DNA of 64,000 bases from Maritimibacter alkaliphilus (GTDB lineage: Bacteria > Pseudomonadota > Alphaproteobacteria > Rhodobacterales > Rhodobacteraceae). Where the stretch lies: positions 1,550,001 to 1,614,000 of the forward strand of contig NZ_JAHVIT010000002.1 in the NCBI RefSeq assembly GCF_019801605.1, read 5' to 3'. The notes under the pieces are model-generated. The model was not told where the DNA came from and did no database searches. It saw only the letters and a program-made list of their open reading frames with translations. This document shows positions 32,047 through 49,720 of this stretch, piece after piece (the stretch's first letter is position 1; each line of letters begins with the position of its first letter). A program made the translations under genes and the position numbers.

Positions 32047-33783
32047 CTAGACGCCGGTCCCGCGTCGCGCCGCCGTGGCCTCGGCGTCCACCTCGGCCCC
32101 CGCCAGCACCACGCCGAAGAGCGCCTCTGCCTGCGCCGCCGTGTAGCGCCCCAGCCGCACGTCCTGCGCCACCAGCGCCGGGTCGCGCCGCATCGGGTCG
32201 CCCCAGCCGCCGCCGCCGGGCGTGCGGACGTGGACCACGTCGCCGGGGGCCAGCGGAATGTCCTGCTCCTTCGACAGATGCTCCGGCACATGGACCGCGC
32301 CGTTCCGGATCACCTCGACCCGGTTCATCGCGCCGTCCGCACCGCCCATGGCACCCTGCGGCCCGAAGCGGCCGTGGTCCATGACGAAGCTCGCCCGCGC
32401 CGATCCGCGCCGCAGCTCCAGCTTGTAGTCCAGCCCGAAGCCCCCGCGATGGGCACCGGCCCCGCCGGAGCCCTCGTGGAGCGCGTAGTGGTGGTAGAGC
32501 ACCGGGAACTGCTGCTCCATGATCTCCACCGGCGGCGCCTTGGAGATGCCGATGGTGGAACAGCCGTTGGCCAGCCCGTCCTCGCCCGCGCTGCCGCCAT
32601 AGCCGCCGCCCGAGAGCTGGTACATGACGAAATCGCGCCCCTTCTCGGGGTCGTGCCCGCCAAGGGCGAAGTTGCCCGAGGTGCCCGCAGGGGCCGCCGT
32701 GGCGCGGTCGGGTAGGGCGGGGGCAAGGGCGGCAAAGACCGCCTCGGCGATCCGCTGGCTGACTTCGGCCGCGCAGCCCGACACGGGGCGGGGATATTGC
32801 GCATCGAGGAAGGTGCCCGCGACGCCCGTCACCTCCAGCGGCTCGAAGGCACCGGCGGAGATCGGCACCTCGGGGAAGAGATGCCGCATGGCGAGGTAGA
32901 CCGAGGAGAGCGTCGTCGCCAGCACCGAGTTCATCGGCCCGGCGCAGGGCGCGGAGGAGCCGGTGAAGTCGAAGCGCAGCCCGTCGTCCTGTCGGGTCAC
33001 CGCCAGCCGGATCGCCAGCGGCTCGTTCACCACGCCATCGCTGTCGATCCAGGCCACGGCCTCGTGTGATCCTTCGGGGATCAGGGCGACGCAGGCGCGC
33101 ATCTGCTGGGCGGCGCGCGCGCGCAACTCGGCAATCGCCCCGGCCACCACGTCGTCGCCGTAACGGTCGAGCAAGGCCGAAAGCCGTTCCGCCCCGACCT
33201 TCAGGGCCGCCGCCTGCGCCTGCACATCCCCGATCCGCTGATCCGCCACGCGGATGTTGGAACAGATGATCGCGTAGATCTCCGGGTCCAGCACGCCCCG
33301 TTTGAAGAGCCGCACCGGCGGCAGCCGCAGGCCCTCCTGTTCCACCGAGGTGGCGGAGGCAGAGAAGCCGCCGGGCACCGCGCCGCCGGTATCGGGCCAA
33401 TGCCCGGTGTTGGACAGCCAGCAGAAGATCTCGCCATCCCGGTAGAAGGGCATGGCAAAGCGCACGTCCATCAGGTGCGTCCCGCCGAGGTAGGGATCGT
33501 TGACGATGTAGATGTCGCCCTCGACCGGCGCCGGGGTCAGCCCGTCGCGGATACGCTCCACCAGCACGCGGGTGGAATATTGCATCGTCCCCACGAAGAC
33601 CGGCAGGCCGCCCGCGCCCTGCGCGATCAGCGCGCCATCCTCGGCGGCATAGATCCCGTCGGAGCGGTCGTTGGCCTCGGCGATCACGGGGGAAAAGGCC
33701 GCGCGGGAGAAGCTGAGGTCCATCTCGTCGCAGACCTGTTGCAGACCGGCCTGAATGACGCTGAGGGTGATCGGGTCGATCAT
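32047..33783 (-). CDS. Hydantoinase B / oxoprolinase family protein
   Basis: A 578-residue HyuB-type subunit (N-methylhydantoinase B / 5-oxoprolinase C-terminal half). Hallmarks are ITLSVIQAGLQQVCDEM at the start, NDPYLGGTHLMDV, FTGSSAPCAGPMN and the HRGGFGLDYKLELRRG segment. With the HyuA partner it should hydrolyse a cyclic amide or imide (hydantoin, 5-oxoproline or related lactam) in an ATP-dependent reaction. Its start overlaps the HyuA stop (33780-33783). It is the second gene of a minus-strand pair next to a heterocycle-type uptake and oxidation cluster. The exact lactam is unknown. Confidence 0.9.
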   Translation of the reverse strand: MIDPITLSVIQAGLQQVCDEMDLSFSRAAFSPVIAEANDRSDGIYAAEDGALIAQGAGGLPVFVGTMQYSTRVLVERIRDGLTPAPVEGDIYIVNDPYLGGTHLMDVRFAMPFYRDGEIFCWLSNTGHWPDTGGAVPGGFSASATSVEQEGLRLPPVRLFKRGVLDPEIYAIICSNIRVADQRIGDVQAQAAALKVGAERLSALLDRYGDDVVAGAIAELRARAAQQMRACVALIPEGSHEAVAWIDSDGVVNEPLAIRLAVTRQDDGLRFDFTGSSAPCAGPMNSVLATTLSSVYLAMRHLFPEVPISAGAFEPLEVTGVAGTFLDAQYPRPVSGCAAEVSQRIAEAVFAALAPALPDRATAAPAGTSGNFALGGHDPEKGRDFVMYQLSGGGYGGSAGEDGLANGCSTIGISKAPPVEIMEQQFPVLYHHYALHEGSGGAGAHRGGFGLDYKLELRRGSARASFVMDHGRFGPQGAMGGADGAMNRVEVIRNGAVHVPEHLSKEQDIPLAPGDVVHVRTPGGGGWGDPMRRDPALVAQDVRLGRYTAAQAEALFGVVLAGAEVDAEATAARRGTGV

Positions 33784-35852
33784 GCCGCACCTCCGATGTG
33801 AACGATCAGGTTGCCCATGGCATCCGCCTCGGCCCGGTCGCCGGGCGGGATCAGCAGGGTGGTGTCCATCTGCTCGACGATCGCGGGGCCGGGGACCACC
33901 GCGCCCGTGGGCAGGTGGTCGCGCCAGTAGAGCGGCGTGTCGTGCCATTGGCCCTCGAAGCAGACCGACCGGGTGCCGCGCTGTGCCTCTGCCAGCGAGG
34001 TGCGGCGCTCCGCCGGGTCCAGCAGGATCGTCAGGTCGAGCGGCTGACGCGTCCCGATGACCGAGCAGTTGGCGTTGACCACCGCGGCGCGGATCGTTTC
34101 CAGCCGGACGCGGAAGCGGTTGAAATAGACCTCCTCGAACCGTGCCAGCAGCGCCTCTGCGGTGATTTCGGCACCATCGAGCGGCACGCGCAGCAGGTGG
34201 GTCTGGCCCATGAACTGCATGTCGAGAGAGAAGACCGCGCGCACCTCGCTGAGCGGCACCGTCTCGCGTTCGATGAGGGCGCGGCCCTCGGCCTCCTGCG
34301 CGCGCAGCACCGCGGCCAGATCGTCCATCGGCAGGGCGTCCAGCGGGCGGTTCAGCGTGGTGACGAAGTCATGGCGCAGATCGGCCACGACACAGCCAAG
34401 CGCGTTGGTGATACCGGGGCGGGCAGGGACGAGAACCTTGGGCACCCCCAACTCCCGCGCCAGAGCACAGGCATGGAGCGGCCCGGCCCCGCCAAAGGCG
34501 AAGAGCGCGAAGTCCCGCGGATCGGCGCCGAGCGAGAGTGAGACCATGCGGATCGCGCCCGACATCTTGACGTTGGCGAGGCGGATCACCGCCTCGGCTG
34601 CCTCTTCCGGCGTCAGCCCCAGCGGGTCGCCGAGCTCTGCGGCGAAGACCCTGCGCACGTCCTCCAGCGTCACACCGCCCTCGACGGAGGCGAGCTTGCC
34701 CGGATCGAGCCGCCCGAGCAGCAGGTTCGCGTCTGAAATCGTGGGCCGGGTACCGCCCCGGCCATAGCAGACCGGCCCCGGCGTCGCGCCCGCGCTTTCG
34801 GGGCCGACCTCCAGCAGGCCGGCGGCGTTCACCTTGGCGATGGAGCCGCCCCCCGCGCCCACGGTGCGCACGTCCACCATGGGGACGTGGATCGGCATGG
34901 CGTATTCCACCTCGATCTCGTTGCTGACGGCGGGCTGCGCATCGCGGATCAGCGCCACATCGGTGGAGGTGCCGCCCATGTCGTAGGTCAGCAGGTTCTC
35001 CAGACCCGCCGCGCGGCCCGTGAAGGCCGCGGCCATGACGCCGGAGGCGGGGCCCGACATCACCGTCTTGGCCGCCTCGCGCGACACCGTGCGGGCCGAG
35101 ACCATGCCGCCGTTGCCGTTCATCACCAGAAGGTCGCCGCCATAGCCGCCCGCCTCCAACTCGCCGGTCAGGCGCGAAACATAGCGTTCCAGAAGCGGCT
35201 GGACCGAGGCATTCACCGCCGCCGTCACCCCGCGTTCGAACTCCCGGCTTTCCGAGAGCAGCGCATGGCCGAGGGTGACGTGATCGTTGGGCCAGACCTC
35301 GGCGAGGATCTCGCCCGCGCGCAACTCATGGGCGTTGTTGGCATAGGCATGAAGGAAGTGCACCACGACCGAGACACAGCCGGCCTCCAGCAGCTGCGCC
35401 GCGGCGGCTCGCAGGGCGTCCTCATCCAGCGCGGTGACGACGCGGCCCTGTGCATCCATCCGCTCGGGCACCTCAAGGCGCAGGTCGCGGGGGATCAGCG
35501 GGGTGAAGCTGCCCTTCATGCCATAGGCCTGCGGGCGTGTCCGGCGGCCCAGTTCGAGCACGTCGCGGAAACCGGCGGTGGTGATCAGCCCGGTGCGGGC
35601 CAGCTTGCGCTCCAGCACGGCGTTGGTGGTGGTGGTCGTGCCATGGACGATGAGGTCCACCGTCGTCAGGTCGGCCTCGGCCACTGTCACCGCGTTCATC
35701 ACGCCGCGCGCCTGATTGTCGAGGGTCGAGGGCACCTTGGCCAGCCGCACGCGGCCCGTGGCCGGATCGGTCAGCACCAGATCGGTGAAGGTTCCGCCCA
35801 CATCGACGCCGATCACGCGCCCCGTTGCCTCGGCCCTGCTGGTGCCCGCCAT
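33780..35852 (-). CDS. Hydantoinase A / oxoprolinase family protein
   Basis: A 690-residue HyuA-type ATPase subunit. It has IGVDVGGTFTDLVLTD at the N-terminus (actin-like ATP site), GTTTTTNAVLERK, YDMGGTSTDVALI and AFGGAGPLHACALA, all standard for N-methylhydantoinase A / 5-oxoprolinase / acetone carboxylase beta relatives. The next gene is HyuB, so hydantoinase/oxoprolinase is preferred over acetone carboxylase. ATG at 35852 has AGGAGG 5 nt upstream. A near-perfect palindrome sits 20-31 bp upstream of the start and recurs, in variant form, at two other promoters of the region, suggesting shared control by the MarR protein. Confidence 0.9.
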   Translation of the reverse strand: MAGTSRAEATGRVIGVDVGGTFTDLVLTDPATGRVRLAKVPSTLDNQARGVMNAVTVAEADLTTVDLIVHGTTTTTNAVLERKLARTGLITTAGFRDVLELGRRTRPQAYGMKGSFTPLIPRDLRLEVPERMDAQGRVVTALDEDALRAAAAQLLEAGCVSVVVHFLHAYANNAHELRAGEILAEVWPNDHVTLGHALLSESREFERGVTAAVNASVQPLLERYVSRLTGELEAGGYGGDLLVMNGNGGMVSARTVSREAAKTVMSGPASGVMAAAFTGRAAGLENLLTYDMGGTSTDVALIRDAQPAVSNEIEVEYAMPIHVPMVDVRTVGAGGGSIAKVNAAGLLEVGPESAGATPGPVCYGRGGTRPTISDANLLLGRLDPGKLASVEGGVTLEDVRRVFAAELGDPLGLTPEEAAEAVIRLANVKMSGAIRMVSLSLGADPRDFALFAFGGAGPLHACALARELGVPKVLVPARPGITNALGCVVADLRHDFVTTLNRPLDALPMDDLAAVLRAQEAEGRALIERETVPLSEVRAVFSLDMQFMGQTHLLRVPLDGAEITAEALLARFEEVYFNRFRVRLETIRAAVVNANCSVIGTRQPLDLTILLDPAERRTSLAEAQRGTRSVCFEGQWHDTPLYWRDHLPTGAVVPGPAIVEQMDTTLLIPPGDRAEADAMGNLIVHIGGAA

Positions 35853-35870
35853 GACAGCCTCCTGAAAACC

Positions 35871-35884
35871 ATTCGTGCACAAAT
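35871..35884. promoter_or_regulatory. Candidate MarR operator at the hydantoinase promoter
   Basis: ATTCGTG-CACAAAT is a 14-bp dyad with six of seven pairs. Read on the minus strand (TTTGTGCACGAA) it matches the site before the XDH genes (TTTGTACACCAA) at 10 of 12 positions. It lies in the 123-bp gap between hyuA and the divergent membrane-protein gene and could control both. Confidence 0.5.
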
Positions 35885-37519: not shown

Positions 37520-38833
37520 ATGACCAAGCTGATCCTGCCCGCGGGAGAGGGCGCCAAGCTGCACTCCCCCGGTCGTCGTAAGGCACTGAAAACACTGGCG
37601 GCCGGCGTTGGCGCCGCGGCCACGATGCCGCTGCTGGGGCGCTATGCCTCGGCGCAGAGCACGGCCCCCATCCGCATCGGCTTCCAGAAGCATGCCACCG
37701 GCATCGGCGCCGCCTACGGTCGCTGGTACGAACGCGCCACGCTGGCCGCGGTGGAGAAGATCAACGGCGAAGGCGGCATCAACGGCCGCCCGGTGGAGAT
37801 CGTGACCGAGGATGACGGCACCGATCCCAAGCGCGGCGCAGAGGTGCTGGAGAAATTCGCCAACCAGTCGAACTGTGACATCGCCTACGGCACGCTCTTC
37901 AGCCACGTGGTCATGGGCTCCGCCCCCCGCGCGGGCGAGCTGAAGCTGCCCTATTTCGTTGTCTCCGAAGGGCATCACGTCGCCTCGGGCGCGCTGAACC
38001 GCTGGACACTGCAACCGGGCATCACCGACGTGAAGAGCCAGGTTCAGGCCATGGCCCCCTTCATCGGCGATGTGCTGGGCAAGAAGGTCACGATGATCTT
38101 CCCGGACTACGCCTTCGGCTATGACCACCGCGACAACCTGCCTGCGGCAATCGCGGCGGCGGGCGGCGAGGTGATCGAGCAGATCGCCATCCCGCCGAGC
38201 GAGACCTCCTACACCAAGTACTTCCCGCGCATCCCGCGCGAGACCGAGGTGATCTATCACGTCATGATCGGCCCCGGCGTCCTGACCTTCGTCAAGGAAC
38301 TGGGCGAGTTCTTCGGCCCCTCGCGGCCCGAGATCTTCGGCTTCGTCGACTCGATCGAGGCCACAGACTTGACCTCGCCGGGCCTCGAGTTCCTCGATGG
38401 CACCTACTTCTGGGAAGGCATGCCGCGCTACGCGCAGGAGGATGATACCGAGTTCTCCACCGCCTACCGCGCCGCCGTCGGCTGTGATGAAAACGGTGCC
38501 AGCCTCGCCGATCCCAAGGACGTGGCGACCTATGCCCACATGTACGGCTGCTGGGAAACGCTGCACATCATCAAGGCCGGGATGGAAGCCTGCGATTACA
38601 AGGGCATCGAGGACCGTCAGGCGCTGATCGAGGCCGTCGAGGCGATGTCCGACATGCCCGAGGGCTTCGACCATCCGCAGGGGCCGAAACGCTTCAACGG
38701 CAAGACCCACCAGACCTTCGGGCAGCAGTACATCTCGAAGGTCGAGGGCGGCAAGCTGGTCAAGGTCCACACGGCCGCGATCGACGACACGATCTACCCG
38801 GACGAGGTCGACTACACGAGCATGTCGTTCTGA
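37520..38833 (+). CDS. ABC transporter substrate-binding protein (branched-chain amino acid/amide family)
   Basis: A 437-residue periplasmic binding protein with a twin-arginine-like signal (SPGRRKALKTLAAGVGAAATMPLLG; cleavage near residue 47). A type I fold typical of the Peripla_BP_5/6 group follows (IRIGFQKHATGIGAAYGRW, NGRPVEIVTEDDGTDPKRGAEV). These proteins bind amino acids, amides, urea or aromatic acids. Its operon contains two permeases and two ATPases, and the neighbouring enzymes suggest an N-heterocyclic or amide ligand. It lies behind a promoter with two MarR-like sites and is separated from the permease gene by a stable hairpin. Confidence 0.88.
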   Translation: MTKLILPAGEGAKLHSPGRRKALKTLAAGVGAAATMPLLGRYASAQSTAPIRIGFQKHATGIGAAYGRWYERATLAAVEKINGEGGINGRPVEIVTEDDGTDPKRGAEVLEKFANQSNCDIAYGTLFSHVVMGSAPRAGELKLPYFVVSEGHHVASGALNRWTLQPGITDVKSQVQAMAPFIGDVLGKKVTMIFPDYAFGYDHRDNLPAAIAAAGGEVIEQIAIPPSETSYTKYFPRIPRETEVIYHVMIGPGVLTFVKELGEFFGPSRPEIFGFVDSIEATDLTSPGLEFLDGTYFWEGMPRYAQEDDTEFSTAYRAAVGCDENGASLADPKDVATYAHMYGCWETLHIIKAGMEACDYKGIEDRQALIEAVEAMSDMPEGFDHPQGPKRFNGKTHQTFGQQYISKVEGGKLVKVHTAAIDDTIYPDEVDYTSMSF

Positions 38834-38878
38834 CGGCTGGTCTTGGCGGCTGTCCGTGACGGCTTTTCGTGACGGAGG

Positions 38879-38912: not shown

Positions 38913-39083
38913 ACGTGACGGGCGGGGCCGGTACGGGACCGGTGCGGGGGCATTCCTGCGCCCCGGCAGACTTTCAGGGGCGTGGCCCCAACCGGCGGTT
39001 GCCCCGGCATGGACATGCCGGGGACTGCCCCCTGCGTCTGCCCGCTCCCGGGCGGCGCGAGAGCTCAAGACGCGACGGACTTC

Positions 39084-40010
39084 ATGGATTTCGGACCTTA
39101 CCTGATGCTCGCCATGCTGGAGGGCGCGGTGCTGGCCTCGGTGCTGGCGCTGATGGCCTCGGGGCTCAGCCTCGTCTTCGGCGTGATGCGCGTGGTCAAC
39201 GTGGCGCATGGCGAATTCTACATGCTGGGCGCGGTCATGGCCTGGGCGGTGACCTCCTTCATCGGCGGCGGCCCGGCGCTGGCCTTCATCGCCGCCGCGA
39301 TCCTCGCGCCGCTGCTGGTGGGCGGGCTGGCCGCCTTGGCCGACATCGTGATCCTCAAGCGGCTGAACTACGACCCCGAGCGGACGATCGTCGCCACCAT
39401 CGGGCTGCTCTACATCCTTCAGCAGGCCACGCTGATGAGCTATGGCGCAGATGCGCGCCCCGTGGTGCCGCCCTTCAACCACCGCATTGCGCTGCCCTGG
39501 ATCGAATGGGGTGAGGGCGGTCTGGCGTTCTACTTCCCCTGGGGGCTGTCCACCACGTCCTACAAGCTGTTCGTCATCGGGGCCGCCGTGGTGCTGATCG
39601 CCGCGCTGCGGCTCTTCATGACCCGCTCCAGGGCCGGGTTGATCATGCGCGCCACCCAGCTGGACGGGGACATGGCCACCGCCTTCGGCATCCCGGTCGA
39701 GCGCGTCTATGCCGCCGTCTTCGGCGTGGGGGCAGGGCTCGCGGCACTTGCGGGCGTGCTGATCGTGCCGATCCAGCAGGCACATTACCTGATGGGGGGC
39801 GATGCGCTGCTGCTGTCCTTCATCGTCGTGATCATCGGCGGGCTGGGATCGCTGGCGGGCACCATCGTGGCCGCCGTGCTGATCGGCATGTCCGACGGCA
39901 TCATCTCGGTCTTCTTCTCGCCCACGCTGGCCAAGATCCTCGCCACGCTGGCCGTGGCGCTGGTGCTGGTGTTCAGGCCGCAGGGCCTCTTCGGGGGCAA
40001 GGGCCGATGA
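39084..40010 (+). CDS. Branched-chain-type ABC transporter permease (LivH family)
   Basis: A 308-residue inner-membrane permease with eight or so helices and the LivH signatures ALMASGLSLVFGVMRVVNVAHGEFYMLGA and FGVGAGLAALAGVLIVPI / IIGGLGSLAGTIVAAVLIG. The reading frame is open from 38982, but the upstream part overlaps a hairpin and has no hydrophobic character. ATG at 39084 puts the first helix at the normal distance, although its ribosome-binding site is weak. Stop overlaps the next start (ATGA). Confidence 0.88.
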   Translation: MDFGPYLMLAMLEGAVLASVLALMASGLSLVFGVMRVVNVAHGEFYMLGAVMAWAVTSFIGGGPALAFIAAAILAPLLVGGLAALADIVILKRLNYDPERTIVATIGLLYILQQATLMSYGADARPVVPPFNHRIALPWIEWGEGGLAFYFPWGLSTTSYKLFVIGAAVVLIAALRLFMTRSRAGLIMRATQLDGDMATAFGIPVERVYAAVFGVGAGLAALAGVLIVPIQQAHYLMGGDALLLSFIVVIIGGLGSLAGTIVAAVLIGMSDGIISVFFSPTLAKILATLAVALVLVFRPQGLFGGKGR

Positions 40011-40948
40011 GCGCACGGTATTACTGGGGCCTGCATCTGGGCCTGATCGCACTGCTGTTCGCAGGCCATTTCGTCCTGCCCGCCTACCAGCACGGCAATG
40101 TCGCCCGCATCATGGTGCTGGCGGTCTATGCCATGGGCTACAACATCGCCTTTGGCTACACCGGCCTGCTGAGCCTCGGCCATGCCATGTTCTTTGGCGC
40201 GGGCATGTACGGGATGGGGCTGCTCTCCTACCACTTCGATGCGGGCGCGCTGCCGGCGATGGCTGCGGGCATCGTGGCGGGGGCGATGCTGTCGCTGGTC
40301 GTGGGCCTGCTGGCGCTGCGCACGGCGGGCGTCAGCTTCATGATCGTGACGCTGATGTTCTCTCAGGCGCTGGCCATGACGCTGGTCTACTTCCGCGACA
40401 TCACGCGGGGCGACGAGGGCTTCGTCATCCCCTCCGCCACCCGGCGGCTCTGGGGCATGGACCTTTCGGACGAGGCGCATCGCTACCTGATCGCCTGGGG
40501 GCTGTTCTCCATCGTGCTGATCTTCACCCTCTGGCTGGTGCGCCACCGCTGGGGCCGCGTCTTCGTGGCCCTGCGCGAGAACGAGGAACGCGCCAGCCTG
40601 CTGGGCTATGATGCCTTCCGCACCAAGCTGGGGGCGCTGGTGATCTCGGGCACGATCTCGGCCCTGTCCGGGGCCGCCTATGCGTTGCTCTTCGGCTATG
40701 CGGGCGCGACCTTTGCGGGCGTGCAATATTCCATCTTCCCACTGCTCTGGGTCCTCCTTGGCGGGGCGGGCACGGTGCTGGGGCCCTTCGTGGGCGCGCT
40801 CTTCATGTTCTACCTGATCGACCTCTCCTCGGGCGTGACCGATGCCTACATGCTGATCGCGGGCGTGGCGCTGGTCCTGCTGACGCTCTTCCTGCCGCAG
40901 GGGCTGGTGGGCGAGGTGAAACGCCGCCTCTGGAGGGACCTGCCATGA
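40007..40948 (+). CDS. Branched-chain-type ABC transporter permease (LivM family)
   Basis: A 313-residue permease with YAMGYNIAFGYTGLLSLGHAMFFGAGMYG near the N-terminus and the cytoplasmic-loop motif FVALRENEERASLLGYDAFRTKL that contacts the ATPases, plus a conserved GGAGTVLGPFVGALF. It forms the membrane heterodimer with the LivH-type protein. It is translationally coupled on both sides by 4-bp overlaps. Confidence 0.92.
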   Translation: MSARYYWGLHLGLIALLFAGHFVLPAYQHGNVARIMVLAVYAMGYNIAFGYTGLLSLGHAMFFGAGMYGMGLLSYHFDAGALPAMAAGIVAGAMLSLVVGLLALRTAGVSFMIVTLMFSQALAMTLVYFRDITRGDEGFVIPSATRRLWGMDLSDEAHRYLIAWGLFSIVLIFTLWLVRHRWGRVFVALRENEERASLLGYDAFRTKLGALVISGTISALSGAAYALLFGYAGATFAGVQYSIFPLLWVLLGGAGTVLGPFVGALFMFYLIDLSSGVTDAYMLIAGVALVLLTLFLPQGLVGEVKRRLWRDLP

Positions 40949-41679
40949 GCGTGATCCTCCAGACCCGCGGCCTCTCGCGCAGCTTCTCCGGCCTGCGTGC
41001 CGTGCACGAGGTGGATTTCGACCTGCCGCAGCACAAGATCCGGGCGCTCATCGGGCCCAATGGGGCGGGCAAGACGACCTTCGTCTCGATGCTGATCGGG
41101 CGGCTGCCGCCGTCCTCGGGGTCGATCACCTTCGAGGGGCGCGACGTGACCGCGCTGCCTGCGCCCAAACGGGTCGGGCTGGGGATGGCCTACACGTTCC
41201 AGATCACCTCGGTCTTCGGCAAGCTGACCTGCCACGAGAACGTGGCGCTGGCCGCCATGCGCCGCCTTGGCGGGGACACCGCGGCGGTCGACGCCGAGGT
41301 GCGCGAGGCGCTGACCCGCGTGGGTCTGGCCGACCGGGCCGCGGACGTGGCGGGAGACCTCTCCTACGGTCACCAGCGTCTGCTGGAGATCGCCATGGGG
41401 CTGGCACAGCGCCCGCGTCTCCTGATCCTCGACGAGCCGACGCAGGGGCTGGCCGAGAGCGAGATCGCCGATTTCAAGGCACTGATCCGGGCGCTGAAGG
41501 CCGAGACGACGATCCTGCTGATCGAACACAACATGTCCGTGGTGATGGAACTGGCCGACCGGGTGACGGTGCTGAACTTCGGCGAGGTGCTGGCCGAGGG
41601 CACGCCGGAAGAGATCCACGCCAGCCGCGCCGTGCAGGCCGCTTACCTCGGCACCGGAACGGAGGAGGCGTCATGCTGA
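40945..41679 (+). CDS. Branched-chain-type ABC transporter ATP-binding protein (LivG family)
   Basis: A 244-residue cytoplasmic ATPase with Walker A GPNGAGKTTF near residue 35, the LivG-specific FQITSVFGKLTCHENVALA region, a signature-like LSYGHQRLLEIAMGLAQRP, Walker B LLILDEPTQGL and the switch segment LLIEHNMSVV. It energises the permease pair with LivF. The signature has SYG in place of SGG, a normal variation in LivG proteins. Overlaps LivF by 7 bp. Confidence 0.92.
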   Translation: MSVILQTRGLSRSFSGLRAVHEVDFDLPQHKIRALIGPNGAGKTTFVSMLIGRLPPSSGSITFEGRDVTALPAPKRVGLGMAYTFQITSVFGKLTCHENVALAAMRRLGGDTAAVDAEVREALTRVGLADRAADVAGDLSYGHQRLLEIAMGLAQRPRLLILDEPTQGLAESEIADFKALIRALKAETTILLIEHNMSVVMELADRVTVLNFGEVLAEGTPEEIHASRAVQAAYLGTGTEEASC

Positions 41680-42368
41680 AGATCGAGGGCGTGGACGTGT
41701 CCTATGGCGCGGCACAGGTGCTGCGGGGCGTGTCACTGACCGCAGAGGCCGGGCAGATCACCTGCCTGATGGGCCGCAACGGCGCGGGCAAGACGACGCT
41801 GATGAAGGCGATCATGGGGCTTTTGCCGCTGGGGTCGGGGCAGATCGCGCTGGAGGGCGCGGTGCTGTCCGATCTGCCGCCGCATGAGGTGCCGAAACAG
41901 GGGGTGGGCTATATCCCCCAAGGCCGGCGGCTTTTCGGCGAATTGACCGTGGCGCAGAACATCGACATCGGGCTGATGGCGCGAGGCAGCGATGCCAAGC
42001 TGCGCGAGGAGCTTTTGGAGATTTTCCCGCGCCTGCGCGAGCGGCTGGGACAGCGGGCCGACACGCTTTCGGGCGGGGAGCAGCAGATGCTGGCCACGGC
42101 CCGGGCGCTGGCGCTGCGGCCGAAACTGCTGCTGCTGGATGAGCCGACGGAGGGGTTGCAGCCCTCGATGATCGAGGCGATCCGGCAGGTGGTGCTGACC
42201 ATGCGCGACCGGGGCGTGGCGGTGGTGCTGGTGGAGCAGCGGGTGGAGGCGGTCCTCGACATGGCGGACCGGGTCTTCGTCATCGAGATGGGCGCGAACC
42301 GGGACGAGATGGACCGCGCCACGCTGAGGGCGGATCCGGCGCGGCTGCGGGCGCACCTGGGGGTGTGA
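41673..42368 (+). CDS. Branched-chain-type ABC transporter ATP-binding protein (LivF family)
   Basis: A 231-residue ATPase with Walker A GRNGAGKTTLMKAIMG, the LivF-typical GVGYIPQGRRLFGELTVAQNI, signature LSGGEQQMLATARALALRP, Walker B LLLLDEPTEGLQPS and VVLVEQRVEAVL. Last gene of the five-gene importer. Its 3' end is followed by the repeat-rich gap 42369-42686. Confidence 0.92.
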   Translation: MLKIEGVDVSYGAAQVLRGVSLTAEAGQITCLMGRNGAGKTTLMKAIMGLLPLGSGQIALEGAVLSDLPPHEVPKQGVGYIPQGRRLFGELTVAQNIDIGLMARGSDAKLREELLEIFPRLRERLGQRADTLSGGEQQMLATARALALRPKLLLLDEPTEGLQPSMIEAIRQVVLTMRDRGVAVVLVEQRVEAVLDMADRVFVIEMGANRDEMDRATLRADPARLRAHLGV

Positions 42369-42686: not shown

Positions 42687-43115
42687 TCAGGTGAGCTTGA
42701 GCAGGAGGTCGAGGAACTGGGCGCGTTCTTCCGGGGTCAGGGGCTCGAGCGTGTCGAGCGTGACGCGGTGCGCCTTTGGGAAGGTGGCCTCGTAGAGCGC
42801 GCGGCCCTGATCGGTGGGGGTTAGGTGGATGCGGCGGCGATCGTCGGGATCGGGGGTCGAGACGAGAAGGCCCTTGGCGCGCAGCCGGTCCGCCACGCCC
42901 TTGATCGTCGCGGCATCCATCGAGGTCGCCCGTCCGAGCGCGTTCTGCGACGTGGGGCCGAGTTCGCAGAGCTTGGCCAGCGCCGCGAACTGGGTCGAGG
43001 TCAGCTGCGGGATATGCTGCGAGAAGATAGAGAGGTGCCGCTGCGTCGCGCGGCGCAGCAGGTAGCCCACCTGAAGGTCGAGGCGGTAGTCGCCGGTCTC
43101 TTGCTCATTTTTCAT
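42687..43115 (-). CDS. MarR-family transcriptional regulator
   Basis: A 142-residue MarR-type winged-helix protein: DLQVGYLLRRATQRHLSIFSQHIP, HTH TSQNALGRATSMDAATIKGVADRLRAKG and the wing VSTPDPDDRRRIHLTPTD. MarR proteins bind short palindromes as dimers and release DNA on binding aromatic ligands, which suits a heterocycle pathway. It is divergent from the molybdenum hydroxylase operon. The frame is open to 43193; ATG at 43115 gives the usual MarR N-terminus and leaves room for the promoter. A dyad in the shared gap, with relatives at two other promoters, is its probable operator. Confidence 0.88.
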   Translation of the reverse strand: MKNEQETGDYRLDLQVGYLLRRATQRHLSIFSQHIPQLTSTQFAALAKLCELGPTSQNALGRATSMDAATIKGVADRLRAKGLLVSTPDPDDRRRIHLTPTDQGRALYEATFPKAHRVTLDTLEPLTPEERAQFLDLLLKLT

Positions 43116-43199
43116 CGCTTCTTTGTGGGAGTCCCCCGTTCCGCTGGCAAGGGCAGAAATGCATGATTGACAGGACTGGGGCGGGAGCGGCACGCTTCT

Positions 43200-43213
43200 G
43201 TTTGTACACCAAC
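43200..43213. promoter_or_regulatory. Candidate MarR operator before the molybdenum hydroxylase operon
   Basis: GTTTGTA-CACCAAC is a 14-bp dyad with five of seven pairs, 18-31 bp upstream of the FAD-subunit GTG and about 85 bp from the marR start. The placement suits repression of the XDH operon. Related sequences occur at 35871-35884 and 37389-37456. Confidence 0.55.
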
Positions 43214-43230
43214 AATAACGGAGCCCTGCC

Positions 43231-44055
43231 GTGACTGCCTACCACAGGCCCGACACGCTGGACGAGGCGCTGCGGATCGCGGCCGATGGCGCCTGCATTC
43301 TGGCAGCGGGCTGTACCGACCTGTTCCCGGCCACCTCCGCGCAGGCGCTGACGGGGCCGGTGCTGGACCTGACCGGCATCGCGGCGCTGAAGGGGATCAC
43401 CCGCAGCGCGGCGGGATGGCGCATCGGGGCGGGCACCTCCTGGGCCGAGATCGCGCGGGCCGACCTGCCCGAGGCCTTCGCGGGCCTGCAGGCGGCGGCG
43501 CGGGAGGTGGGATCGGTACAGATCCAGACCTCCGGCACCATCGGCGGGAACCTCTGCAATGCCTCTCCGGCGGCGGACGGCGTGCCGCCGCTGCTGACCC
43601 TGGGCGCCTCGGTGGAACTGGCGGGCCCTGCGGGGCTGCGGGTGCTGGCGCTGGAGGCGTTCATGCTGGGGCCGCGCCGGGTGGCGCTGGTGCCGGGGGA
43701 GATCCTGACGGCGGTGCTGATCCCGGAGGTGTCGGGGCAGGGGGGCTTCCTGAAACTCGGGGCGCGGGCCTATCTTGTGATCTCGATCGTCATGGGCGCG
43801 TCGCGGATCGTGCTGGACGACGGGCGCATCGCGCAGGCAGCGCTGGCCATGGGCGCGGCCTCGCCCGTCGCCCGGCGGCTGACGGCGCTGGAGGCGGCGG
43901 TGACGGGCCTGCGTCCCGCAGAGGCGGCGGGCTTCGATCCGGTGCTGGTGACCCGGGCGCTGTCGCCGCTGAGCGATCCGCGCGCGGATGAGACCTATCG
44001 CAACGAGGCGGCGGTGACGCTGATGCGCCGCCTGATCGGGGAGGCGGGCCGATGA
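43231..44055 (+). CDS. Molybdenum hydroxylase FAD-binding subunit (CoxM/XdhB-like)
   Basis: A 274-residue xanthine-dehydrogenase-family FAD subunit. The FAD site is visible in ILAAGCTDLFP (the usual AGGTDL motif is replaced by AGCTDL) and in TIGGNLCNASPAADGVPPLLTLGA. It passes electrons from the Fe-S/Mo subunit to NAD or another acceptor. The start is GTG at 43231 with CGGAG 7 nt upstream. It overlaps the next gene by 4 bp, so the two form one enzyme, first in the XDH-Hnr operon. Confidence 0.9.
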   Translation: MTAYHRPDTLDEALRIAADGACILAAGCTDLFPATSAQALTGPVLDLTGIAALKGITRSAAGWRIGAGTSWAEIARADLPEAFAGLQAAAREVGSVQIQTSGTIGGNLCNASPAADGVPPLLTLGASVELAGPAGLRVLALEAFMLGPRRVALVPGEILTAVLIPEVSGQGGFLKLGARAYLVISIVMGASRIVLDDGRIAQAALAMGAASPVARRLTALEAAVTGLRPAEAAGFDPVLVTRALSPLSDPRADETYRNEAAVTLMRRLIGEAGR

Positions 44056-46805
44056 CCTTGCCACGGATGAGCCTGCGCGTGAACGGCACCGCCCGCGACG
44101 TCGAAGCAGCGCCACTGACGCGGCTGTCGGACGTGCTGCGCGAGGATATCGGGCTGACCGGCACCAAGGTGGGCTGCGACGCGGGCGACTGCGGCGCCTG
44201 CACCGTCCTGCTGGACGGCGCGCCGGTCTGTGCCTGCCTGACCCCGCTGGGGCAGGTGGCCGGGCGCGAGATCACCACGGTCGAGGGCCTGTCCGAGGCC
44301 GACGCGGGCCGGGCATTGCAGGAGAGTTTCCTGCGCCATGGGGCGGCGCAATGCGGGATCTGCACGCCGGGGATGCTGGTGGCGGCGACGGCCTTGCTGC
44401 GCGAGGTGCCCAAGCCGAGCCGGGCACAGGCCGAGGCGGCGCTTGGTGGCGTGCTCTGCCGCTGTACGGGCTATGCGAAGATCATCGATGCCGTCTGTGA
44501 CGCGCGTCCGGGGGCAGTGGCCGGGATGGCTGATGAGACCCCGGCACCTGCGCTTGTGCAGGCCCCCGCGCAGGGCCGGGCCGTCGGTGCGCGGATGCCG
44601 CGTCGCGACGGGGCGCCCAAGGTGGCGGGCACCGAGGTCTTCGGTGCCGACCACCGGATGGAGGGCGAGCTCTGGGTCCGGGCGATCCGCTCGCCCCATG
44701 CTGCTGCAGCTTTCGACCTTTCGGGGCTGACCGGCTGGGCCAAGGCGCGGGGCCTCATGGCTTTCACCGCCGCCGACCTGCCGGGGATCAATGCCCACGG
44801 GGTGATCCCGCCCTTCGCGGACCAGCCTGCCCTGGCCGAGCGCGAGGCGCGGTTCCGCGGCGAGGCAGTGGCGCTGCTGGCGGGCCCGCGCGACGTGCTG
44901 GAGCCGCTGGACCTGCGCAGCGCGCCCGTGGTCTGGACCGAGTTGGAGGCCGTCCTCGACCCGGCGCACGCCATTGGCGCGCGCCCCGTGCAGGACCAGC
45001 GCCCCGACAACGTGTTGACTCGGGGCCGCGTGGCGCAGGGCGATGCGGAGGAGGGGCTGGCGCAGGCCGCCCACCTTGCCGAGGTGGAGATCACCACCGC
45101 CTATGTCGAACACGCCTATATCGAGCCCGAGGCCGGCATCGCCTGGACGGAGGGCGACGTGCTGAACATCCGCGCCTCGACCCAGGCGCCGGTGATGGAT
45201 CAGGAGGACGTGGCCAAGCTGCTGGACCTGCCGCTGGAGAAGGTGCGCATCCGCCCCTCCGGCGTGGGCGGGGGCTTCGGCTCAAAGCTGGACGTGAACA
45301 TCCAGCCGCTGATCGGTCTGGTGGCGCTCAAGACCGGACGGCCCGCGCGGATGGTACTGACCCGGGCGGACTCGCTGACCTCCTCCACCAAGCGGCATCC
45401 GGCGACCATGCGGGCGCGGATCGGCTGCGACGGGGAGGGCCGCCTGACGGGGATGGCCTTCGACGGGATTTTCAACACCGGGGCCTATGCCTCTTGGGGG
45501 CCGACGGTGGCGAACCGTGTGCCGGTCCATGCCTCGGGGCCCTACCGGACGCCGAACTACCGGGCCGAGACGGTGGCGGTGCATACCAACGGGCCGGTGT
45601 CCGGGGCCTTCCGGGGCTTCGGGGTCCCGCAGGCGGCGCTGGTGCAGGAAACGCTCTATGACATGCTGGCCGAGGCGACGGGGATCGACCGGCTGGCCTT
45701 CCGGCGGATCAACGCGCTGAAGGATGGTGAGCCGACGGTCTGCGGGCAAAAGCTGGGCGGTGTGGGTATCGGCGCTTGCCTTGAGGCGCTCGAGGCGCCG
45801 TGGCAGGCCGCGCTCGACCGGGCGGCGGCCAAGGACACCGAGGGCGGGCGCCTGCGTCACGGCGTTGGCGTGGCCTCCTGCTGGTACGGCTGCGGGAATA
45901 CCGCGCTGCCCAACCCCTCGACCATGCGGCTGGGGCTGACGGCGCAGGGGCGGCTGGTGCTCCATCAGGGGGCGACGGACATCGGGCAGGGCTCAAACAC
46001 CGTGATCCCGCAGATCTGTGCCGATGCGCTCGGCCTGCCGATCGCGCAGATGGAGACCATCGGTGCCGATACCGCGCTGACGCCGGACGGCGGCAAGACC
46101 TCCGCCTCGCGGCAGACCTATGTTTCGGGCAAGGCGGCGCTGCTGGCGGGGCAGGCGCTGAGGGCGCAGATCCTCATGCGGGCGAACCGGGCCGAGGAGG
46201 CCGTGCTGACGCTCGAGGGTGCGCGCCTGACGGTGCGCGATGCCGCTGGCGAGAGTGTCATCGACCTTGCCGCACTGCCGGTGGAGGGCGATTACGTGCT
46301 GGTGGCGGAGGAGAGCTATGACCCGCCGACCGCGCCGCTGGACGAGAACGGGCAGGGCGTACCCTATGCGGTCTACGGCTACGGCGCGCAGGTGGCGGAG
46401 GTGACGGTGGACGTCGAGCTTGGCACCACCAAGGTCACCCGGATCACCGCCGCCCATGACCTTGGCCGGGTGGTGAACCCGCTGCTGGCGGAGGGCCAGA
46501 TCGAGGGCGGGATCGCACAGGGTCTCGGCATGGCGCTGATGGAGGAATACCTCCCCGGCCGCACCGAGAACCTGCACGATTACCTGATCCCCACCACCGG
46601 CGACATGCCACGGATCGACCCGATCCTGATCGAGGTGCCGGACCCGGAGGGCCCGATGGGTGCCAAGGGGCTGGGGGAGCACGTGCTGATCCCCACCGCG
46701 CCCGCGATCCTCAATGCCATCGCCCATGCCACCGGCGTGCGGGTCACCCGCACCCCCGTCCTGCCGCACCGCCTGCGCGCGGCTCTCAGAGAGGCCGGCC
46801 TATGA
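44052..46805 (+). CDS. Molybdenum hydroxylase, fused [2Fe-2S] and molybdopterin subunits
   Basis: A 917-residue fusion. Residues ~1-160 are the two-cluster Fe-S subunit: plant-type [2Fe-2S] ligands Cys42, Cys47, Cys50 and Cys62, and the second cluster from Cys101/Cys104 (QCGICTPG) and Cys136/Cys138 (CRCTGY). A linker (~160-185) leads to the molybdopterin domain, with GVGGGFGSKLD, GPVSGAFRGFGVPQ, GATDIGQGSNT and the catalytic Glu876 in GAKGLGEHV. The fused order resembles Desulfovibrio aldehyde oxidoreductase, but here a separate FAD protein is present. The CO dehydrogenase motif is absent. Next to a 6-hydroxynicotinate-reductase homologue, hydroxylation of nicotinate or a similar N-heteroaromatic ring is the most economical role. 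It overlaps both neighbours by 4 bp. Confidence 0.9.
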   Translation: MTLPRMSLRVNGTARDVEAAPLTRLSDVLREDIGLTGTKVGCDAGDCGACTVLLDGAPVCACLTPLGQVAGREITTVEGLSEADAGRALQESFLRHGAAQCGICTPGMLVAATALLREVPKPSRAQAEAALGGVLCRCTGYAKIIDAVCDARPGAVAGMADETPAPALVQAPAQGRAVGARMPRRDGAPKVAGTEVFGADHRMEGELWVRAIRSPHAAAAFDLSGLTGWAKARGLMAFTAADLPGINAHGVIPPFADQPALAEREARFRGEAVALLAGPRDVLEPLDLRSAPVVWTELEAVLDPAHAIGARPVQDQRPDNVLTRGRVAQGDAEEGLAQAAHLAEVEITTAYVEHAYIEPEAGIAWTEGDVLNIRASTQAPVMDQEDVAKLLDLPLEKVRIRPSGVGGGFGSKLDVNIQPLIGLVALKTGRPARMVLTRADSLTSSTKRHPATMRARIGCDGEGRLTGMAFDGIFNTGAYASWGPTVANRVPVHASGPYRTPNYRAETVAVHTNGPVSGAFRGFGVPQAALVQETLYDMLAEATGIDRLAFRRINALKDGEPTVCGQKLGGVGIGACLEALEAPWQAALDRAAAKDTEGGRLRHGVGVASCWYGCGNTALPNPSTMRLGLTAQGRLVLHQGATDIGQGSNTVIPQICADALGLPIAQMETIGADTALTPDGGKTSASRQTYVSGKAALLAGQALRAQILMRANRAEEAVLTLEGARLTVRDAAGESVIDLAALPVEGDYVLVAEESYDPPTAPLDENGQGVPYAVYGYGAQVAEVTVDVELGTTKVTRITAAHDLGRVVNPLLAEGQIEGGIAQGLGMALMEEYLPGRTENLHDYLIPTTGDMPRIDPILIEVPDPEGPMGAKGLGEHVLIPTAPAILNAIAHATGVRVTRTPVLPHRLRAALREAGL

Positions 46806-48316
46806 ACTCCCCCGCGCAACCTGCTGCCAAGCCTGAGAAAATCCGCTGCGATGCCTGCCCGGTCATGTGTTTCGTGGCCGAAGGCCGCACCGGGGCCTGC
46901 GACCGCTATGCCAACGAGGGCGGCAAGATCGTGCGCTGCGATCCGATCACCGTGCTGGACCGGCGGCTGGAGGCGGGCGGCGAGATCCGGCCCTTCCTCA
47001 AGGACGACTGGGACGGCAGCGTTCTGGCGGGCGACGACCTCTTCGTCTCGGCCGTTGGGGCGGGCACGACCTATCCCGACTTCAAGCCCGCGCCCTTCAT
47101 CGTCTCGCGCGAGGTCGAGGGCGTGGACACCGTCACCGTCGTGACCGAGGCGATCTATTCCTACTGCGGCGTGAAGGTGAAGATCGACACCGACCGGCAC
47201 CTTGGCCACGAGGGCGCGAAGGTGCGCGCCAAGGGCGAGGTCGTGGGGCTGGTCATCACCTCCGAATACGGCTCGCAGATGCTGTCGCTGGGCGGCGTGG
47301 ATCACCTGACCGGCGGCTCCAAGTCCGAGGGCCGGGTGACCTGTGACACGCTCATGGCGCTGTGCAACCGCGAGGCGGTGGAGCTGGAGATCGAAGACGG
47401 CGCCACGGTCGTCGTGCAGGCCGGTCAGCCGCCCATCGTCGATGGCAAGCGCGAGGAACGGATGCGGGTCGGCTGCGGCTCGGCCACCATCGGGATGTTC
47501 GCGGGCCACTGGCAGGGGCTGGTGGACGAGGTGGTGGTGGTCGATGACCATATCACTGGTGTCGTCAGCGAACATCAGGCGGGCAAGGTGATCGGCTGGC
47601 CCGACACCGGCATCCGCATCAACGGGCGGCGCTCGACGCCCGGACGGTATTTCCAGGTGGCCGAACCGGGCCTCGGCTGGGGCGGGACCGATATCGAGGA
47701 CCCGCTTTCGATCCTCGGCGAATGGCGTGCGGCCAAGGGCGCGACCGAGGGCATGACGTTGCTCATGGTCTCGACCACCGGCGAACATGCGGCGGCCTAC
47801 CGGCTGGACGCGGAGCTGCGCCCGCAGCCGGTGCCGCTGTCGCCGGACCTGCAGGAGACGGTGGACCTGATCGCCGAGAACTGCGAACCGGCGCTCTGCA
47901 CGGTGATGTTCACCGGCGGCGCGGGGGGATCGTTGCGGTCAGGCGTGACCCGCAACCCGGTGCGGCTGACCCGCGCCGTGCAGGGGAGGCGCGCCACGGT
48001 GACGGTGGGCGGGGCCGAGTGTTTCGTCTGGCCCGGCGGCGGGATCACCCTGATGGCGGACGTGACGCAGATGCCGGCGCAGAGCTTCGGTTACGTGCCC
48101 ACGCCCGCGCTGGTGGCACCGCTGGAGTTCACCATGCCGCGGGCGGATTACGTGGCGCTTGGCGGGCACGAGGGCGCGATCCGGGCGCTGTCGGACGTGC
48201 TGGAAAACGGTGGCGAATACGGTGCCGAGTGGCGTGCCCTGCCACGGGAGGCCGGGCGGCGGGCGCAGCCTGCGCGCGGGGCAGACGCCACCCCCGATCC
48301 GAAGCACAGGCCATGA
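46802..48316 (+). CDS. 6-hydroxynicotinate reductase-like Fe-S protein
   Basis: A 504-residue protein recognised as the Hnr family, named after the Eubacterium barkeri enzyme that reduces 6-hydroxynicotinate to 1,4,5,6-tetrahydro-6-oxonicotinate. An N-terminal cluster motif Cys16-x2-Cys19-x3-Cys23-x9-Cys33 (RCDACPVMC...TGACDRY) probably binds [4Fe-4S]. The middle contains VTVVTEAIYSYCGVKVKIDTD and GSATIGMFA. Near the C-terminus, residues 380-383 (SGVT) resemble the Thr-flavinylation motif of FMN-bind proteins. From memory, the E. barkeri enzyme contains a covalently bound flavin, and the next gene is ApbE-like. The C-terminal ~25 residues are a polar tail. It is coupled by a 4-bp overlap to the molybdenum hydroxylase. 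The true substrate here is unproven. Confidence 0.78.
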   Translation: MNSPAQPAAKPEKIRCDACPVMCFVAEGRTGACDRYANEGGKIVRCDPITVLDRRLEAGGEIRPFLKDDWDGSVLAGDDLFVSAVGAGTTYPDFKPAPFIVSREVEGVDTVTVVTEAIYSYCGVKVKIDTDRHLGHEGAKVRAKGEVVGLVITSEYGSQMLSLGGVDHLTGGSKSEGRVTCDTLMALCNREAVELEIEDGATVVVQAGQPPIVDGKREERMRVGCGSATIGMFAGHWQGLVDEVVVVDDHITGVVSEHQAGKVIGWPDTGIRINGRRSTPGRYFQVAEPGLGWGGTDIEDPLSILGEWRAAKGATEGMTLLMVSTTGEHAAAYRLDAELRPQPVPLSPDLQETVDLIAENCEPALCTVMFTGGAGGSLRSGVTRNPVRLTRAVQGRRATVTVGGAECFVWPGGGITLMADVTQMPAQSFGYVPTPALVAPLEFTMPRADYVALGGHEGAIRALSDVLENGGEYGAEWRALPREAGRRAQPARGADATPDPKHRP

Positions 48317-49146
48317 TCCAGTCCCGCCTCCTGCCCGACGGGGTGCGGCTGCACCTGCACCACGGGCCGATCGACCTGATCCTCTGGGCCGACGAGGCGG
48401 TGCGCGGGGCGGCCTATGCGGCCGCCGCCATGGCCTTCGACGGGCTGCTGGAAGACCTCGTGGCAGAGCTGCCCGCCTTGCGGAGCGAGACCCCCGGCCC
48501 GTTGCACCACCCGGTCGCGCAGGCGATGGAGGGCGCGGTGGCGCCCTTCCGGCCCGCCTTCGTCACGCCCATGGCGGCGGTGGCGGGCGCGGTGGCCGAC
48601 CATGTGGCCGGTGCCATGGCGCGCACGGGCGCGCGCAAGGCCTGGGTCAACAATGGCGGGGACATCGCGCTGGTGCTCGGCCCGGGGCAGAACTTCTCGG
48701 CCGCCATGCCGGGCGGGCGGGTGACCTTGCAGGGGGCAGAGCCCTGGCGCGGGATCGCCACGTCGGGACGGGGCGGGCGCTCCCATTCACTGGGCATTGC
48801 CGATGCGGTGACCGTGGTGGCGCGCACGGCGGCGGAGGCCGATGCGGCGGCCACGATGATCGCCAACGCGGTGAACCTGCCCGGCCATCCGTCGGTCAGC
48901 CGCGCCCCGGCCTGTGATCTTTCCCCCGACAGCGACCTTGGCGCGCGGCTTGTGGTCACCGGCCTCGGCCCGCTGGCGCGCGACGAGATCGACCGTGCCC
49001 TTGCGGCGGGGCGGGCACGGGCGCAGAGATATCTTGCACGCGGCCTGATCGGCGGCGCGCATCTGGCCCTTCGCGGGCAGAGCACCGCCGTGGGCGCGAT
49101 GGCCCCGGGCGGCGCATTGGCACTGGAGGAGACGGAAGATGCCTGA
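48313..49146 (+). CDS. UPF0280 family protein, ApbE-like (possible flavin transferase)
   Basis: A 277-residue UPF0280 protein. Its second half follows the pattern of FAD:protein FMN transferase ApbE: a VNNGGDIALVL strand-turn, then IATSGRGGRSHSLGIADAVTVVARTAAEADAAATMI, corresponding to the ATSG, H/D and T-A-x-x-AD-A segments of ApbE. No signal peptide is visible, so it would act in the cytoplasm. Its 4-bp overlap with the Hnr-like gene and the candidate flavinylation motif there suggest it attaches flavin to that protein. That is inference; the family has no established activity that I know of. It overlaps the next gene by 8 bp. Confidence 0.75.
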   Translation: MIQSRLLPDGVRLHLHHGPIDLILWADEAVRGAAYAAAAMAFDGLLEDLVAELPALRSETPGPLHHPVAQAMEGAVAPFRPAFVTPMAAVAGAVADHVAGAMARTGARKAWVNNGGDIALVLGPGQNFSAAMPGGRVTLQGAEPWRGIATSGRGGRSHSLGIADAVTVVARTAAEADAAATMIANAVNLPGHPSVSRAPACDLSPDSDLGARLVVTGLGPLARDEIDRALAAGRARAQRYLARGLIGGAHLALRGQSTAVGAMAPGGALALEETEDA

Positions 49147-49720
49147 ATTCACCCTGCGCAAGACGATGATCTTTCTGGAAGACATCGCCCATGACGGCGG
49201 CCCTGCACCGGAGGTGCCGCGCCAGCGCGGTGCCATCGTGGCGCTCGTGAAGAACCCCTTCGCCGGGCAGTATGTCGAGGACCTGAGCAGCCACATGGAC
49301 GCGCTGAAACCGCTGGGCCTGATGATGACCGACCGGCTGATCGCGGCGATGGGCGGGATCGAGGGTATCGACGGCTATGGCAAGGCCGCCATGTGCGGCG
49401 AGGCGGGCGAGCTGGAGCATACCGCGCTGTGGCATGTGCCAGGCGGCTATTCCATGCGCGAGAGGCTGGGCGAGGCGCTGGCCATCGTGCCCTCCGCCAT
49501 GAAGCAGGGCGGGCCGGGCACGCGGATCGACGTGCCGCTGGGGCATATCAACGCGGCCTATGTGCGCAGCCATTTCGACGCCATGGAAGTGGGGCTGCCG
49601 GACGGGCCGCGGGCGGATGAGCTGATGTTTGCCCTCGCCATGTCGCGCGGCGGGCGGGTCCATGCGCGGATGGGCGGGCTGGAAGTTTCGCAGATCGCCA
49701 AGATGGACGGGCTGCGCTGA
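49139..49720 (+). CDS. Amino acid synthesis family protein (DUF1185)
   Basis: A 193-residue protein of the AA_synth/DUF1185 family (TLRKTMIFLEDIAHDGG start; VALVKNPFAGQYVEDLS; GKAAMCGEAGELEHTALWH; PLGHINAAYVRSHFD). The family name comes from structural genomics and context; no reaction is established to my knowledge. It is the last gene of the MarR-controlled XDH-Hnr operon. Because no recognisable enamidase follows Hnr, this protein is a candidate for opening the reduced lactam ring, with hydantoinase A/B the alternative. The 3' end is followed by a large palindrome cluster. Confidence 0.75.
   Translation: MPEFTLRKTMIFLEDIAHDGGPAPEVPRQRGAIVALVKNPFAGQYVEDLSSHMDALKPLGLMMTDRLIAAMGGIEGIDGYGKAAMCGEAGELEHTALWHVPGGYSMRERLGEALAIVPSAMKQGGPGTRIDVPLGHINAAYVRSHFDAMEVGLPDGPRADELMFALAMSRGGRVHARMGGLEVSQIAKMDGLR

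Follow-up and report, generated by a model that had tools for sequence, protein, structure and literature searches.

The window analysed here, a stretch of 64,000 nucleotides from Maritimibacter alkaliphilus, holds at positions 32047 to 49720 a gene cluster whose sequence comparisons make it likely to be a catabolic regulon, in which nicotinate would be degraded via 6-hydroxynicotinate and 1,4,5,6-tetrahydro-6-oxonicotinate (THON), with the hydantoinase-type pair HyuA/HyuB (HyuAB) replacing the enamidase. The cluster (Table 1) comprises a five-gene importer of the branched-chain type (37520–42368) and a plus-strand operon (43231–49720) for the flavin adenine dinucleotide (FAD) subunit and the fused subunit XdhSL of a hydroxylase of the xanthine dehydrogenase (XDH) type, followed by Hnr, UPF0280 and DUF1185. 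All gene families named in a sequence-only reading of this DNA are present at the positions given there, as judged by Pfam and NCBIfam profile matches, and the gene overlaps of 4–8 bp that it described are found at eight junctions, the HyuA/HyuB junction among them. The strands are corrected: HyuA, HyuB and MarR are all encoded on the minus strand, MarR being divergent from the hydroxylase–Hnr operon, and the start of HyuB is moved to 33783, from its ATGA overlap with HyuA.

Table 1. Features of the cluster, in positions of the window (aa, amino acids; ORF, open reading frame)
Feature	Position	Strand	Evidence
HyuB (578 aa), member of the hydantoinase B/oxoprolinase family, proposed second subunit for ring opening	32047..33783	-	PF02538, 518 bits; best solved match 6yra_B
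HyuA, 700 aa (ORF, TTG start), proposed first subunit for ring opening	33780..35882	-	PF05378, PF01968, PF19278
Polytopic membrane protein, 452 aa	35976..37334	+	no Pfam/NCBIfam match
Putative operator upstream of importer operon, 2 mismatches to TTGTRYACNAACAA	37391..37404	+	motif scan
ABC importer substrate-binding protein	37520..38833	+	PF13458 (Peripla_BP_6)
ABC importer permease 1	38982..40010	+	PF02653 (BPD_transp_2)
ABC importer permease 2	40007..40948	+	PF02653 (BPD_transp_2)
ABC importer ATPase 1	40945..41679	+	PF00005, PF12399
ABC importer ATPase 2	41673..42368	+	PF00005
MarR-family regulator, divergent from hydroxylase–Hnr operon	42687..43115	-	PF01047
Putative operator TTGTACACCAACAA, MarR/hydroxylase promoter region	43202..43215	+	motif scan
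Molybdenum hydroxylase FAD subunit	43231..44055	+	PF00941 (FAD_binding_5), PF03450 (CO_deh_flav_C)
XdhSL, 2Fe-2S/molybdopterin fusion subunit, proposed nicotinate hydroxylase	44052..46805	+	Fer2/Fer2_2/MoCoBD_1/2
Hnr, proposed 6-hydroxynicotinate reductase	46802..48316	+	similarity to annotated relatives
UPF0280, predicted ApbE-like fold, Hnr partner	48313..49146	+	NF003322, predicted structure
DUF1185 (AA_synth), alpha kind	49139..49720	+	PF06684; relatives 3byq and 2qtp

In the proposed pathway, the importer would take up the substrate, the two-gene molybdenum hydroxylase (an enzyme of the NicAB type in relatives) would convert nicotinate into 6-hydroxynicotinate, and Hnr, together with UPF0280, would reduce this compound to THON. 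HyuA/HyuB would then open the THON lactam instead of the enamidase, presumably generating 2-formylglutarate and ammonia, and the products would continue to glutarate, as is described for Azorhizobium (PMC3511419). UPF0280 probably acts on the flavin of Hnr, and a regulator, probably MarR, would govern the importer and enzyme operons via a common operator. The order of events proposed from the letters alone, with hydroxylation, Hnr-type ring reduction and opening of the lactam without an enamidase, is supported: the window's genome has no enamidase match at E ≤ 0.001 in a search that strongly detects the enzyme in 29 of the other 67 Hnr-positive genomes.

Hnr is encoded once in the window's genome and matches no Pfam or NCBIfam family. 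It is 56–70% identical to its matches in 26 plasmid records, many of which are annotated as 6-hydroxynicotinate reductase, and nine cysteines are invariant among 59 relatives, the four N-terminal ones being C16, C19, C23 and C33. For the Hnr of strain SG-6C, an identity of 42% with the Eubacterium barkeri protein is given in PMC3511419. A sequence search against solved structures gives chance matches only, and no fold is claimed for Hnr, its model being of moderate confidence, with a mean predicted local distance difference test (pLDDT) score of 75.2 and a top solved-structure match at an E-value of 0.15. Neighbouring genes have been counted in 80 genome_contigs loci (the best 80 of the 187 Hnr relatives found), in 67 loci from a class sample, which is an even draw of 385 alphaproteobacterial genomes and from which the window's genome is left out here, and in five plasmid loci; genes cut off at contig ends are scored as lacking. 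Hnr is present in 68 of the 385 genomes when the window's genome is included. UPF0280 lies beside Hnr in 80/80 genome_contigs and 65/67 class-sample loci, with corresponding counts of 70/80 and 59/67 for XdhSL, 74/80 and 43/67 for DUF1185 and 53/80 and 38/67 for MarR. The two class-sample loci that lack UPF0280 (L147 and L181) are on short contigs, and the gene is found elsewhere in both genomes (G292 and G231). Given the counts for UPF0280 beside Hnr, the clustering exceeds chance. The closest relative of Hnr (98% identity) is from Pseudooceanicola nanhaiensis (locus L014), where the DNA is 93–94% identical to the window from 42687 to 53613. The importer/HyuAB block is not in this 21-kb locus, to which the comparison is confined, and the right and left parts of the island can therefore occur separately. 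The homology with L014 ends at 42687, the stretches concerned being 42369–42686 of the window and 1–5886 of L014, and AT-rich palindromic pieces are seen by eye in the gap between importer and MarR (42369–42686). Hnr relatives 66–67% identical to that of the window also occur in two loci (L080 and L081) titled Exiguobacterium and Oceanobacillus, which may be misnamed or wrongly assembled.

The Hydant_A_N, Hydantoinase_A and Hydantoinase_B domains are all present in HyuAB, and the best solved match of HyuA is the N-methylhydantoinase 7hk5, followed by the 5-oxoprolinase 6yra. In other Hnr loci the proposed ring opener is an amidohydrolase of the enamidase type, as in a Sulfitobacter plasmid (L084), where the protein matches the E. 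barkeri enamidase 2vun over residues 6–388 with 360.6 bits. The two ring openers exclude each other. Locally, HyuAB only, enamidase only, both and neither are found in 22, 14, 0 and 44 genome_contigs loci (with flanks of at most 10 kb), in 21, 16, 0 and 30 class-sample loci and in 3, 2, 0 and 0 plasmid loci, respectively. Genome-wide, 37 of the 68 Hnr-positive genomes have a close HyuA orthologue, 29 have an enamidase orthologue, none has both and two, with assemblies of 70% (G226) and 86% (G313) completeness, lack either one; the Fisher P value of this exclusion is 3e-17, with kinship not corrected for. The lower bounds for orthologues, 552.8 bits for enamidase and 790.8 bits for HyuA, are placed in score gaps: the top HyuA relative in any enamidase genome scores 639.5 bits and the top enamidase relative in any HyuAB genome 297.5 bits. 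Enamidase is also found in one of the 317 Hnr-negative genomes (G082); in these genomes two HyuA and four enamidase candidates were scored per genome, and misses are possible.

The ring opener seems to have been exchanged several times among related bacteria, as suggested by a quick tree of Hnr sequences. From 152 loci, 139 Hnr sequences passed a filter that removes internal stops and short sequences, and the tree includes 102 rows of at least 400 aa with a ring-opener label or an origin in the class sample (44 labelled enamidase, 57 HyuAB and one neither). The label needs at least eight changes on this tree, and the starred branches force five to six. The HyuAB clade that contains the window is starred and has 24 rows, and the next fork outward (support 91, unstarred) adds two enamidase rows. 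The kinds of DUF1185 have also been compared, with three reference copies only. Of the copies directly after UPF0280, 40/40 from HyuAB loci plus the window and 32/34 from enamidase loci resemble that of the window or the first copy of L084 (alpha). Of the remaining copies, 37/38 from enamidase loci and 3/3 from HyuAB loci are like the second L084 copy (beta). The three HyuAB loci in question (L083, L085 and L175) all have enamidase rows as their neighbours in the Hnr tree, as expected after recent exchange. As the alpha kind occurs with both ring-opener types, and as PF06684 is not found in 9 of the 68 Hnr-positive genomes, DUF1185 itself does not track the exchange. In a DUF1185 structure paper (PMC2954203), no more than a role in amino acid metabolism is proposed.

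Several observations favour nicotinate as the substrate over the N-heterocycle of undescribed identity in the sequence-only reading. When the two molybdenum cofactor (MoCo) halves of XdhSL are compared separately with solved structures, the best match of both is 3hrd, the nicotinate dehydrogenase of E. barkeri (217.4 bits versus 146.0 for the next match of the first half, and 227.1 versus 140.7 for the second). Nicotinamidase-like genes are found in 12 Hnr clusters, and the 11 that were tested (all except that of L131) exceed the NCBIfam cut-off, with 182–222 bits versus 174; three of these clusters have HyuAB (L049–L051), three have enamidase (L061, L079 and L131) and in six no opener is seen. 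In Pseudomonas putida, nicotinate is hydroxylated by NicAB. Eight loci, from Pseudooceanicola and its kin, are without XDH, and in the seven XDH-less HyuAB-cluster genomes that were searched (L003 being left out) there is no XdhSL orthologue, the best match being 35% identical. All seven encode a full-length NicB-like protein with MoCo and cytochrome c domains, which is absent from the window's genome in the same search and is 49–53% identical to a gene product of L085 annotated as nicotinate dehydrogenase subunit B; in L085, nicA/nicB, Hnr and HyuAB are in one locus. The importers of the two types are also interleaved. A tree of the binding protein SBPw (44 rows, 25 labelled) has four ring-opener changes, two of them forced by starred branches, a tree of SBPf (34 rows, 31 labelled) has five, and the importer binding protein of the window is 62–75% identical to those of eight enamidase-type loci.

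A putative operator precedes each of the two plus-strand operons in the window. When up to two mismatches are allowed, TTGTRYACNAACAA occurs in only two places of the window, exactly in the hydroxylase promoter and with mismatches before the importer operon (0.24 expected), and it is not found there before HyuAB or the membrane protein. The pattern TTGT-N6-ACAA, picked after inspecting TTGTACACCAACAA of the window, is present in 13/39 MarR/hydroxylase promoter regions, the window included (0.045 in mononucleotide shuffles, kinship uncorrected), one of which (L057) has another core. A scan of 190 loci gives 25 exact matches to the operator, in 24 loci, and none is within a recognised gene. Nineteen precede the hydroxylase FAD subunit or Hnr, six of these being in enamidase loci; two precede HyuA (L035 and L116, the same stretch), one is between divergent genes for enamidase and ferredoxin reductase (L072, the only case preceding enamidase), one separates a coenzyme A (CoA) transferase from the reductase (L077), and two adjoin the enamidase gene at its 3' end (L120 and L123). 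MarR is probably the binder of this operator.

UPF0280 matches the model NF003322 with 315.3 bits (cut-off 290) and no Pfam family, and no paper on it was found in the literature searched. All 68 Hnr-positive genomes have it, and none of the 317 Hnr-negative ones does, if two marginal matches (E about 7e-4) with internal stops in G101 and G243 are set aside. Its predicted structure has a pLDDT of 96.0, and a Foldseek search gives 2o34 first, followed by 39 chains of ApbE, Ftp and FmnB with E-values of 4.5e-5 to 4e-3 and template-modelling scores (TM-scores) of at most 0.50 by query length. Asn113, Gly115, Gly116 and Asp117 of the NxGGD motif and Asp177 and Thr181 of the ADxxAT motif are invariant in 64 UPF0280 sequences; their counterparts bind Mg and FAD in ApbE. 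The catalytic histidine of ApbE is carried by the HxxDP loop. When UPF0280 is aligned with the ApbE of the window's own genome, the HIIDP of the latter falls in a gap, in a weak profile match (probability 1.9, E 0.026). The term 'ApbE-like' of the sequence-only reading holds for the predicted fold but not for the canonical HxxDP loop; the ADxxAT and NxGG motifs are shared with the ApbE flavin transferases. It is quite possible, though somewhat less than evenly so, that UPF0280 is not a flavin enzyme and serves Hnr as a structural subunit or as a chaperone of its iron–sulphur part, as the missing counterpart of this loop and the lack of a Pfam family would suggest; the ApbE-like predicted fold and the invariance of both motifs argue against it. 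The Hnr of E. barkeri has a covalent flavin. UPF0280 is proposed to be a dedicated partner of Hnr that probably acts on its flavin. The one ApbE above the Pfam cut-off in the window's genome (L183, C2:458447-459238) adjoins a 411-aa protein which, by eye, resembles NqrF.

The assignment of HyuAB to THON has to be weighed against two other explanations. HyuAB clusters might act on a different, related ring, for example picolinate, and enamidase clusters on nicotinate, such that the lactams differ. Reduced picolinate is the six-ring homologue of 5-oxoproline, which would suit a member of the 5-oxoprolinase/hydantoinase family, relatives of the window's HyuA also occur in genomes without Hnr, and two separate pathways could equally yield the exclusion seen in the 68 genomes. 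This is nevertheless unlikely when considering the interleaved importers, the many ring-opener changes on the Hnr tree, the same operator in both types, the nicotinamidase genes of L049–L051, the NicB-like hydroxylase co-occurring with HyuAB and the nicotinate dehydrogenase as best match of the window's hydroxylase. Still more improbable is that HyuAB acts later, or on another compound, and that an unrecognised enzyme such as DUF1185 opens THON: HyuAB does lie outside the Hnr locus in some genomes, being local in 21 of the 67 class-sample loci and present in 36 of these genomes when they are searched in full, but 66 of the 68 Hnr-positive genomes are covered by either HyuA or enamidase, and DUF1185, as noted above, does not follow the exchange.

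Several points weigh against the proposed THON pathway with HyuAB as ring opener. For the FAD subunit, 3hrd_C is third (69.1 bits) and the xanthine dehydrogenase 1jro is closer (87.9 bits), and a search with undivided XdhSL places 3hrd_A only 22nd of 49 solved matches, a low rank because 3hrd is split into chains. A nicotinamidase relative is lacking in the window, and the name of Hnr derives from annotated relatives. The cut-offs for orthologues were chosen after the scores had been seen, and a weak enamidase-like protein (37–41%) is present in three HyuAB genomes (G104, G289 and G064). HyuA relatives above 790 bits are found in 5/317 Hnr-negative genomes and at 743–764 bits in four more, with no clear gap there, and in three Hnr-negative loci they are beside a different molybdenum subunit. 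The opening of an enamide should need no ATP, yet HyuAB belongs to an ATPase family.

The gene set and substrate are not as undescribed as the sequence-only reading held. PMC3511419 describes a comparable reductive nicotinate cluster of Azorhizobium and Bradyrhizobiaceae, with a hydroxylase, Hnr, a ring-opening step, an ABC importer and a pair of conserved proteins of unknown function, which covers the first three steps; strain SG-6C, having a cluster of this kind, grows on nicotinate via 6-hydroxynicotinate, which adds to the support for nicotinate as the substrate. When compared by published description, the window shares with the Azorhizobium caulinodans/SG-6C cluster the hydroxylase, Hnr, the importer, the two conserved unknown proteins and the setting in aerobic Alphaproteobacteria, but has HyuAB in place of enamidase; the Azorhizobium kind of layout, with a NicB-like hydroxylase and enamidase, is found in G361. 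The fermentation of E. barkeri likewise proceeds by hydroxylation and then ring reduction, and PMC9304392 gives an overview of hydrolytic THON opening in E. barkeri and A. caulinodans; the MoCo halves of the window are closest to the E. barkeri enzyme, whereas its genome is without an enamidase relative. The HyuAB domains and the two-subunit layout are those of 5-oxoprolinase, N-methylhydantoinase and caprolactamase, but HyuAB misses the equivalog cut-offs of caprolactamase (497 and 300 bits versus 1000), and it differs from the family members in its proposed substrate, THON. In the literature searched, mostly excluding subscription papers, no description of HyuAB in nicotinate degradation was found. 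The pathway type is already known, and the ring opener looks like the new part. The reading in its most novel form is put forward tentatively, at a little under an even chance: HyuAB would be a THON opener, probably ATP-driven and new for its family, that has several times replaced enamidase together with DUF1185-beta in a nicotinate pathway widespread among Alphaproteobacteria, and UPF0280 would be an ApbE relative without the histidine loop, dedicated to the Hnr flavin.

The 452-aa membrane protein has no family match in Pfam or NCBIfam; its relatives are in 32/80 genome_contigs, 6/67 class-sample and 2/5 plasmid Hnr loci, of both ring-opener types. XdhL0, a lone molybdenum subunit of the CoxL type (29439–31739, plus strand), is convergent with HyuB. 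Its relatives near Hnr elsewhere are at 26–37% identity, and as this is the level of the XdhSL family, XdhL0 is left out of the pathway. Three Hnr-negative genomes from a single family (f114) encode closer relatives (40–42%) that stand in line with relatives of HyuA (L184:11312-13669, L185:11354-13624 and L186:9299-11641). A BKACE and a pyridoxal phosphate (PLP) decarboxylase lie close by in both L184 and L186, and L184 also has a Rieske oxygenase; perhaps these loci belong to another pathway using the same HyuAB. A protein with DHO_dh and 4Fe-4S domains (57280–58584), which we take to be PreA-like, suggests reductive pyrimidine catabolism nearby. Homarine and trigonelline were considered as substrates, since many hosts are marine, and the literature search gave nothing on these genes. 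A Rieske oxygenase of the VanA_C type is encoded in nine Hnr loci (L065, L083, L084, L118, L119, L125, L127, L130 and L173); our guess is an N-demethylase for trigonelline-like compounds.

The analysis offers a testable function for a HyuAB subfamily, for UPF0280 and for the two kinds of DUF1185, and the cluster provides a clean case in which one catabolic step is repeatedly exchanged between unrelated enzymes. Hnr is present in 68 of 385 alphaproteobacterial genomes, and the pathway may therefore be a common nicotinate sink in soil and sea.

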